Shown piece after piece: positions 11,860 through 30,955 of a stretch of 64,000 nt of DNA (its first letter is position 1; the number at the start of each line of letters is the position of its first letter). The notes under the pieces are model-generated. The model was not told where the DNA came from and ran no database searches. It saw only the letters and a list, made by a program, of their open reading frames with translations. The DNA lies in assembly GCF_039543225.1 (NCBI RefSeq), contig NZ_BAABJI010000001.1:771193-835192 (forward strand), written 5' to 3'. The translations under genes were made by a program, and so were the position numbers. Source of the DNA: Mucilaginibacter defluvii (lineage in GTDB: Bacteria; Bacteroidota; Bacteroidia; Sphingobacteriales; Sphingobacteriaceae).

Positions 11860-11990
11860 TTCGACGAGGAAAAAATGACAACTTTCGATTGATTACTATC
11901 TTGTCATATCGAGCGATAGCGAGATATCTGCCTGCGTTCATAATCAGACGACAGATTTTTCGTTGTACCTTGTTCAAAATGACCACTTTT
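11860..11990. repeat. GTCATnTCGAGCGATAGCGAGA dispersed repeat, copy 1
   Basis: Contains TGTCATATCGAGCGATAGCG followed by AGATATCTG at about 11902-11931. The other copy lies inverted near 54160-54213. The arms ATATC/GATAT here are ATTTC/GAAAT there, a compensatory change that keeps a hairpin around GCgataGC. Nothing coding was seen here. Confidence 0.6.
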
Positions 11991-12041: not shown

Positions 12042-12340
12042 GTAGGCCTGCCGGAAAACCGGGCCGGGGGTATAGCCTGTGCGGCTGAAGGTTTTTTCCG
12101 GCTTGATGTTTGGTTACTTTGTATCTAAGATAAAGTAACTGGCCTCTGCGGTCAAGAGCAGACTGACAATGGTAATAGCATTAGCTCTTGATCTTCGCAG
12201 TACCATTCGTAAAAGCACAGTTTATTACCTGTCCTGAATTTCTTTTGAGCGATCAAAAGAAGCAAAAATCGCCGGCTTTTTAATTTTCTATTAAAGGCAA
12301 TGCATCATCAGTGCTACCCGAAAATTAAGAGGCCGGTATT
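12042..12340. repeat. Structured dispersed repeat, full copy A
   Basis: About 295 bp, no supportable gene. Module 1 (12042-12170): GGCCTGCCGGaaaaCCGG start, then a hairpin GTTACTTT / AAAGTAAC (12115-12139), then GGCCTCTGCGGTCAAGAGCAG. Module 2 (about 12218-12336): hairpin TTCTTTTGA / TCAAAAGAA with gcga loop (12240-12261), then nested arms GCCGGC...GCCGG and TTAATTTTC / GAAAATTAA enclosing GCATCATCAGTGCTACC. Copies B to E of the same family lie at 30.1-30.95 kb. The intergenic stretch 11785-12406 therefore holds three repeat types and no gene. Confidence 0.8.
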
Positions 12341-30077: not shown

Positions 30078-30103
30078 GTTGATTCTTAGATAAGTCACTT
30101 CAT

Positions 30104-30220
30104 TACCTGTCTTAAAACTTCTTTTGTGCGAACAAAAGAAGCAAAAGTCGCCGGCTGTTTAATTTTCTGTGAAGGGTAGTGCATCATCAGTGCTACCCGA
30201 AAATTAAGAGACCGGAATTA
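30104..30220. repeat. Structured dispersed repeat, copy B (module 2 only)
   Basis: Hairpin CTTCTTTTGT / ACAAAAGAAG with loop gcga (30118-30141), then GCCGGC arm, TTAATTTTC / GAAAATTAA outer stem and GGGTAGTGC / GTGCTACCC inner stem. The loop-closing pair is T-A here and A-T in the other copies, which is compensatory. It begins 27 bp after the deacetylase stop. Confidence 0.75.
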
Positions 30221-30251
30221 TAGTTTATGCTTGTTTAGTAGTAAATCTGAA

Positions 30252-30545
30252 GCGTTGACCTGCCGGAAAACCGGGCCGGGAGTATGGCCTGTGGATGGAA
30301 GGATTTTTTCGGCTTGACTATTGGTTATTTTGTGTACAAGACAAAGTAACTGGTCTCTACGGCCAAGAGCAGGCTGACGATAATTTTGGCAGAAACTCTT
30401 AATAAAAGCAAATAGTTCATCATTTGTCCTAAATTTCTTTTGAGCGATCAAAAGAAACAAAAATCGCCGGCTACGTCCTGCCCGGTGAAAGGTTGTGCTT
30501 TGGCAGAGTTTGTGCTACTCCGGGCATTACTGATGCCGGTTGTTA
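30252..30545. repeat. Structured dispersed repeat, copy C (diverged module 2)
   Basis: Module 1 (30252-30385) with hairpin GTTATTTTGT / ACAAAGTAAC, then the TTCTTTTGA / TCAAAAGAA hairpin. After GCCGGC the usual arms are replaced by unrelated bases that still pair: GCCCGG (30479-30484) with CCGGGC (30520-30525), closed again by GCCGG. The region 30078-30953 therefore contains repeats only and no supportable gene; two antisense frames across it are rejected. Confidence 0.75.
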
Positions 30546-30608
30546 GGCTATTTACGGTTGGTACTCGAATATATTTGTCAATTTCTAATAACATAATTTC
30601 CAAATGAG

Positions 30609-30895
30609 CGTTGGCCTGCCGGAAAACCGGACCGGGAGTATGGCCTGTGGGTGGAAGGATTTTTTCGGCTTGACTTTTGGTTACATTGTGTCCAAGACAA
30701 AGTAACTGGCCTCTGCGGCCTAAGAGCAGGCTGACGATGATTAAATCACGATTACTTAAATAAAGCACTAACAGTTTATTACTTGTCTTAAATTTCTTTT
30801 GAGCGATCAAAAGAAGCAGAAGTCGCCGGCTGTTTAATTTTCTGTGAAGGGCAGTGCATCATCAGTGCTACCTGAAAATTAAGAGGCCGGAGGAG
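30609..30895. repeat. Structured dispersed repeat, full copy D
   Basis: About 285 bp: GGCCTGCCGGaaaaCCGG, hairpin GTTACATTGT / ACAAAGTAAC, linker, TTCTTTTGA / TCAAAAGAA, then TTAATTTTC / GAAAATTAA with inner GGCAGTGC / GTGCTACC. Same orientation as copies B and C. Confidence 0.8.
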
Positions 30896-30936: not shown

Positions 30937-30955
30937 ACGTCGGCCCGCCGGAATC
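30937..30955. repeat. Structured dispersed repeat, truncated copy E
   Basis: Only the first 19 bases of module 1 (CGTCGGCCCGCCGGAA) remain. It supplies the stop region of the following minus-strand gene. Confidence 0.4.

Follow-up and report, generated by a model that had tools for sequence, protein, structure and literature searches.

A widespread family of structured intergenic repeats with an elaborate Watson-Crick-compensated fold in Mucilaginibacter and its relatives

The dispersed element described here, first seen in a 64,000-nucleotide stretch of the Mucilaginibacter defluvii genome (the window), is a real and widespread structured DNA repeat, a more elaborate representative of the REP/BIME kind. 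Its copies lie between genes and join two modules in inverted orientation, and its helices have been preserved by Watson-Crick compensation without any preference for G.T pairs. On balance, we regard it as a REP/BIME-type family of structured DNA repeats that are intergenic and non-autonomous, and that would be mobile and served by an enzyme acting in trans. The mobility would be a reading from the dispersal, the composites and the presence or absence of copies at matching places, not from observed movement.

Architecture of the repeat unit

The two modules follow a common plan but are inverted relative to each other, each being composed of a hairpin (H1), a linker and a second hairpin (H2). 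In each module, the H1 loop pairs with the linker beyond H1 in a pseudoknot-like contact, while a small outer pseudoknot, P0, is located outside H1 in module 1 only. Neither the shared inverted plan nor the two pseudoknot-like pairings had been part of the original prediction. On the minus strand, module 1 runs from P0 through H1 (GTTACTTTG..CAAAGTAAC) and the linker to H2 (GCCGGAAAA..TTTTCCGGC). P0 is a CTGC/GCAG hairpin, whose loop GGCC pairs with the GGCC just downstream, and the module 1 linker has a CTTGAT-like complement within the H1 loop. Module 2 shows the same order on the plus strand, H1'-CAAAA-linker-H2', and its commonest pairings join the loop sequences GCGAT, GCGA or GCAG with the linker sequences ATCGC, TCGC or CTGC.

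Copies of both modules can carry an insert of ~50 bp (CTTAGCGT..GCGAATAA) at one point of the plan, between the 3' arm of H1 and the pairing linker. Given the shared inverted plan and the shared insertion point, the modules appear to be two forms of a single unit in head-to-head arrangement. The insert may itself represent a third small module (it is seen at L035 604-781, L024 1681-1858 and L028 1384-1564 and in module 2 copies), and a stretch resembling it follows H1 in L052 and L069. Units measure about 80-330 nt. H2 is variable in length, reaching up to about 220 nt in other genomes (by eye), where tail-to-tail composites of units, about 300-640 bp long, are also found. At L061 (1266-2512), a 407-bp unit with a long-H2 module forms 3.1 tandem repeats with 93% matches.

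The copies in the window are listed in Table 1; the array of copies B, C, D and E spans 30.1-30.95 kb. As predicted, A and D are full copies, in which both modules and the linker can be read. The accompanying description of B, C and E as partial copies applies to B and E, whereas C, with both modules and a second inner-arm type, counts as a variant of the full form.

Table 1. Copies of the element in the window and their parts (window positions)
Feature	Position	Strand	Basis
Copy A: module 1, linker, module 2	12042-12340	+	full copy
A module 1, hairpin H2 (GCCGGAAAA / TTTTCCGGC)	12050-12103		arm covariation
A linker pairing with the H1 loop, pseudoknot-like	12102-12108		loop-linker pairing tests
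A module 1, hairpin H1 (GTTACTTT..AAAGTAAC)	12113-12139		helix 3 of the covariation test
A module 1, P0: two interlocked short helices, CTGC/GCAG and GGCC/GGTC	12141-12161		helices 1 and 2 of the covariation test
A module 2: H1', linker, H2' with type-a inner arms TTAATTTTC/GAAAATTAA	12221-12336	+	L001 1680-1795; loop-linker GCGAT/ATCGC
Copy B: module 2 alone, type a	30099-30225	+	sequence
Copy C: module 1, linker, module 2, type-b inner arms GCCCGG/CCGGGC	30247-30560	+	sequence
Copy D: module 1, linker, module 2, type a	30609-30895	+	full copy
Copy E: 17-bp stub, truncated 5' end of module 1	30937-30953	+	by eye
R1 covariance-model match (P0, H1 and linker) in A	12095-12173	-	C1:783287-783365
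R1 covariance-model match in C	30306-30384	-	C1:801498-801576
R1 covariance-model match in D	30662-30741	-	C1:801854-801933

Covariation and the nature of the fold

The module-1 structure with both interlocked helices was analysed in an alignment of 74 module-1 sequences, the hits that remained after length limits and duplicate removal. Its covariation was 0.181, as compared to 0.081 ± 0.005 in shuffled alignments (0 of 500 shuffles), and it fell to 0.03-0.07 when the partners of the same structure were slid, although these two controls do not fully allow for the kinship of the sequences. Changes on both sides were found in 14 of the 24 module-1 pairs, against a mean of 8.9 in the shuffles. 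The H2 arms gave a covariation of 0.366, as compared to 0.125 ± 0.010 when shuffled (0 of 500), and one H2 pair occurs as C-G 25 times, G-C 24 times, A-T 13 times and T-A 5 times. The loop-linker contact was assessed by swapping partners. In module 1, the true partners formed 5.33 bp on average and the swapped partners 4.72 bp (0 of 1000; 46 unique sequences of the 74). The corresponding values were 4.17 and 3.79 in module 2 (0 of 500), where 12 of the 60 unique H1 regions, those with the ~50-bp insert, had been set aside beforehand, and 5.96 and 5.20 in eight other genera (0 of 500; 69 unique sequences of 126 matches), for which the contact was absent from the model of the alignment. The outer contact of P0 was not significant in the other genera by the partner-swap metric (32 of 500).

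The covariation expected by the original prediction is thus present in a larger alignment under shuffle and slide controls. Together with the recurrence of the contact in other genera and the lack of a shared open frame, it bears out the proposal that folding, and not a protein, has been kept. Two individual changes proposed within the window can also be read directly: the innermost pair of the TTCTTTTGA/TCAAAAGAA hairpin is changed from A-T to T-A between A, C and D on one side and B on the other, and the GTTAC stem of C shows a change from C-G to T-G.

The types of imperfect pairs bear on whether the fold acts in DNA or in RNA. When only pairs with at least two Watson-Crick types were counted (8/14 and 12/14 for the element, 48/92 for RNase P), P0 and H1 contained 2.4% G.T and 3.4% A.C near-pairs in Mucilaginibacter (other genera: 1.0% and 1.3%), whereas the RNase P control, taken from 30 of 41 genomes in the order, showed 9.1% G.T and 0.6% A.C, and 1.9% and 7.4% on its antisense strand. 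In this comparison, G.U was permitted when the RNase P structure was predicted, the A2 alignment had been made by fitting to the R1 model, and the H1 loop region is misaligned in some module-1 rows. The H2 arms lean slightly the other way, with 5 G.T and 2 A.C among 599 cells, the others being 590 Watson-Crick and 2 of other kinds. With respect to folding energy, the plus sense was favoured in 15 of 16 copies, and dinucleotide shuffles of 11 copies gave an equal gap; a strand preference on this ground was hence dropped. Watson-Crick pairing with no clear strand fits a DNA fold, or re-templating of the arms, better than an RNA fold, and argues for an element that would fold at the DNA rather than the RNA level.

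A structured RNA, whether a 3'-end element, a regulator or a mobile RNA, would act through its fold in transcripts and would have spread by its usefulness or by retroposition. Contacts of the pseudoknot type are more familiar from RNA, which counts against the DNA repeat that we favour, and here two such contacts covary in Mucilaginibacter, the loop-linker one in other genera too. The location of copies near gene ends, often convergent ones, and the places shared with relatives (see below) would suit an RNA as well. We nevertheless consider an RNA rather unlikely, in view of the near-pair counts, the folding energies without strand preference beyond composition, and the alternating orientation of the units. 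Rfam likewise had no match over the element or elsewhere in the window; at gathering score, it returned three tRNAs only in L229-L237, L246 and L247, and at E values up to 1 in seven loci a single weak match outside the element. The original alternative of a non-coding RNA or a structured mobile DNA is therefore narrowed, its DNA half being the better one and its RNA half being weakened by the near-pair and folding-energy analyses.

The pairing could also be mostly mutational, with palindrome arms re-templated by template switching and homogenised by gene conversion, without selection on the fold. The nearly pure Watson-Crick state of the H2 arms, with few intermediates, the difference of an entire inner-arm cassette at the A locus and the lack of a strand preference would all follow from such a process. 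On the other hand, the short loop-linker contacts, and the 4-bp P0 helices in Mucilaginibacter, also covary and are short for template switching, and eight other genera keep the same plan despite a different sequence, which makes a mostly mutational origin improbable.

Distribution, history and search for a mobiliser

In agreement with the prediction of a dispersed element, copy A and the B-E array are accompanied by many relatives in the same genome (4.66 Mb, 4 contigs), where copy A has at least 46 BLAST matches (best non-self E value 1.8e-79), a count that may be a lower bound, as 40 of 52 first-look candidates were scored. The matches were grouped into 31 intergenic places, none of which (0/31) is inside an ORF of at least 120 aa. 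The neighbouring genes are convergent at 15, tandem at 7 and divergent at 4 of 26 places, and adjacent gene pairs in the window are distributed 11/23/10, a rough comparison based on mechanical ORF calls with cut-offs of 120 and 150 aa, with 5 of the 31 places lacking a called neighbour on one side. Among eight full copies, comprising A, C, D and five more from other parts of the genome, identity is 72-87%, which gives no sign of recent movement in this genome.

The range of the family depends on the probe. BLAST with D matched 29 of 60 genomes (29/37 in the genus, 0/23 outside), and an element pattern had matches solely in four named Mucilaginibacter genomes. The R1 covariance model (P0 and H1) matched A, C and D, 38 of 41 genomes of the genus and, in a sample of 121 genomes across the order, 93 genomes in 9 of 11 genera. 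The R1-sampled genomes listed are all of one family, which we take to be Sphingobacteriaceae. No copy was found in plasmid, phage and IMG/VR collections by BLAST with D at an E value of 1e-5 and by one exact-pattern search.

In some genomes, copies are clustered within about 5-20 kb among ordinary-looking genes. Integron-like cassette arrays were considered and rejected, as the clusters in other genera have no common cassette gene (ORF lists, by eye). In G188, a genome of another genus, six tandem units are spaced ~370 bp apart (L232 1738-4050); they are nearly identical by eye, and this array has thus probably expanded recently. In G171, R1 copies are located between successive same-strand genes of an apparent TonB/SusCD-type cluster (L229 12756-18531; gene names by eye).

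Comparison with strains JRF and UR6-1, M. roseus and M. polytrichastri showed that 5 of 24 element places match a copy of the M. defluvii genome with both flanks: A in UR6-1 (L076), C1:190291, C1:581786 and C1:1158549 in M. roseus, and C2:1873074 in JRF. These shared places would be as consistent with a local function as with old age, and to that extent they count against mobile repeats. The C1:190291 pair aligned poorly (223/447) and was excluded from the cassette comparison. At the A locus, UR6-1 has GCCCGG/CCGGGC inner arms in module 2, where M. defluvii has TTAATTTTC/GAAAATTAA, and a ~54-bp insert in module 1. Given that the other arm type is found at the orthologous locus, the arm replacement in C is an exchange between two standing cassette types, most simply by recombination or gene conversion. 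The GCCCGG/CCGGGC arms predicted for C are therefore present, but as a swapped cassette and not as pair-by-pair compensation.

Conversely, the copy at C1:616897-617179 is missing from the matching intergenic space of UR6-1, in which the flanks match and another palindromic repeat is present. No target-site duplication was found, the UR6-1 site without the element being occupied by that other repeat. In JRF, the element is absent after the peptidase gene that precedes B, and the sequence beyond this gene does not align; the JRF element of L079 has flank matches in the M. defluvii genome at two separate places only.

A composite is repeated in G026, where 14 of 20 fetched loci carry it in aligned form (alignment >350 bp), 13 of them 78-87% identical to L286 and 4 of the 14 reversed relative to L286. 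The 7-bp inverted ends CGCTCAT/ATGAGCG are present at both ends in 13/14, and a longer 12-bp end, GAAGCCGCTCAT and its complement with one mismatch allowed, in 4/14. The flanks are partly related, since 3/14 share outer sequence and 4/14 adjoin another repeat. In the modules of the window, a simple terminal inverted repeat was not seen by eye. A second palindromic repeat family (TGTCATTTCGA..GAAATCTG and CGTCATTGCGAGGAACGAAGCAATC), which is CGTC-REP-like, often adjoins the element: it occurs in the flanks of many M. defluvii copies (e.g. window 11880-11990; L006 1380-1485; L272, L273, L280, L284) and beside the ends of 4/14 of the G026 composites.

RAYT (Y1_Tnp) genes are present in 55 of 61 genomes of the genus. 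The domain search gave no Y1_Tnp match in the M. defluvii genome (G000) or in JRF, which has 39 R1 matches, and elements occur without such a match also in G002, G023, G032, G036 and G083, for example. Element modules flank 1 of 40 fetched Y1_Tnp loci of the genus, which comprise several Y1 types, and in ten genomes of other genera 1 of 18 Y1_Tnp places is within 500 bp of an R1 match, among the R1 matches listed. Within the 9 bases preceding the P0 stem, GTAG was found in 2 of 59 Mucilaginibacter units (1.3 expected), and in the other genera GTGG was found in 1/80 and GTAG in 0/80; CGTC precedes the stem in 22/59 Mucilaginibacter units and in 2/80 units of other genera (1.7 expected). With the tag at chance level and RAYT genes not flanking it, the element fails two defining features of RAYT-REPs. 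On the domain search, the module search in 40 loci and the positions in ten further genomes, RAYT was rejected as the cognate mover, and no transposase linked to the element was found in these Y1_Tnp searches.

A particular form of this idea is that the repeats are the REP elements of TnpA-REP subclass 2.6. PMC6006769 describes this subclass from Bacteroidetes, with atypical flanking structures and complex secondary structures that have copies elsewhere in the genome, and gives its motifs as NH[LIV]H, YIH[QN]NP or YLHNNP, and SS. Proteins bearing these motifs are present in the genus, one of them near module 1 in G021 (L116), and another is near R1 copies in G162. However, the 12 subclass-2.6-like genes listed are flanked by other palindromes (by eye), with module 1 as an additional neighbour at L116, and the element occurs in genomes without a Y1_Tnp match; together with the two counts of RAYT loci above, this renders the assignment very unlikely, the structures being compared by their description in words. 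The palindromes beside the Mucilaginibacter subclass-2.6-like RAYT genes of L116-L135 include CTTGCGCTCGTTTGCAACGAGTGCTTAA and ACCACGAGTTACGCTACGCTAAACTCGCGGCAGC.

Finally, a family of small minus-strand protein genes can be dismissed, as the 120-aa ORF across C and D (30448-30810, minus strand) is carried whole by no other copy among the first 40 tblastn matches, and the eight full copies share no open frame, the longest stop-free stretch covering 89 codons in C and 83 in D and, as the predicted lack of conservation implies, only 39-64 in A and the five other full copies.

Relation to known repeats and significance

Like REP, BIME and REPIN sequences, the element is intergenic, multi-copy and palindromic, with alternating orientation, pairs and arrays, and often lies past gene ends. 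It differs from them in that its units, about 80-330 nt long, contain interlocked helices in place of one short hairpin, and in having neither a GTAG/GTGG tag nor a linked RAYT. PMC3733652 reports CGTC-tagged palindromic repeats, REP-like single stems of 8-9 bp without a dedicated transposase, with Bacteroidetes among the phyla. Unlike these, the element has several helices, including interlocked ones, and CGTC is common in its Mucilaginibacter units only. MITEs are similarly short and non-autonomous, and the G026 composites have partly inverted ends, but neither a parent IS nor a target-site duplication was found for the element, and its internal fold is conserved. The ends of IS200/IS605 elements and the attC sites of integrons are single-stranded folds recognised by their shape. 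The element differs from both in that no linked transposase or integrase gene was seen, and no cassette genes lie between its units (by eye); background on IS200/IS605 is given in PMC6006769. No earlier description of the element was found in the open-access literature searched.

If the element is a mobile DNA repeat of the REP/BIME type, its units, which occur in alternating orientation singly, in pairs or in arrays, would fold as single-stranded DNA, either in a cruciform or on the template of the lagging strand. The fold would be recognised by an enzyme acting in trans, which would copy or move the unit, and this recognition would maintain the fold while the sequence drifts. Copies would settle and persist where they are least damaging, in the spaces between genes and often past gene ends. 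More specifically, but only tentatively, the DNA-level pseudoknotted fold might define a class of mobile repeats recognised as single-stranded DNA in most of the sampled genomes of the family, with the loop-linker contact and the interlocked helices kept by Watson-Crick compensation, and with a mover that is not a RAYT, none having been found beside any copy examined.

The alignment and the covariance model are ready for use, and the count of G.T against A.C pairs with an RNase P control provides a simple test of whether other 'structured repeats' act at the DNA or the RNA level. The family poses the question of what recognises folded DNA with loop-linker contacts in copy-rich genomes in which the known REP mover was not found. 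REP-like biology would be extended to a large Bacteroidota family, with a fold far more elaborate than the textbook short hairpin.
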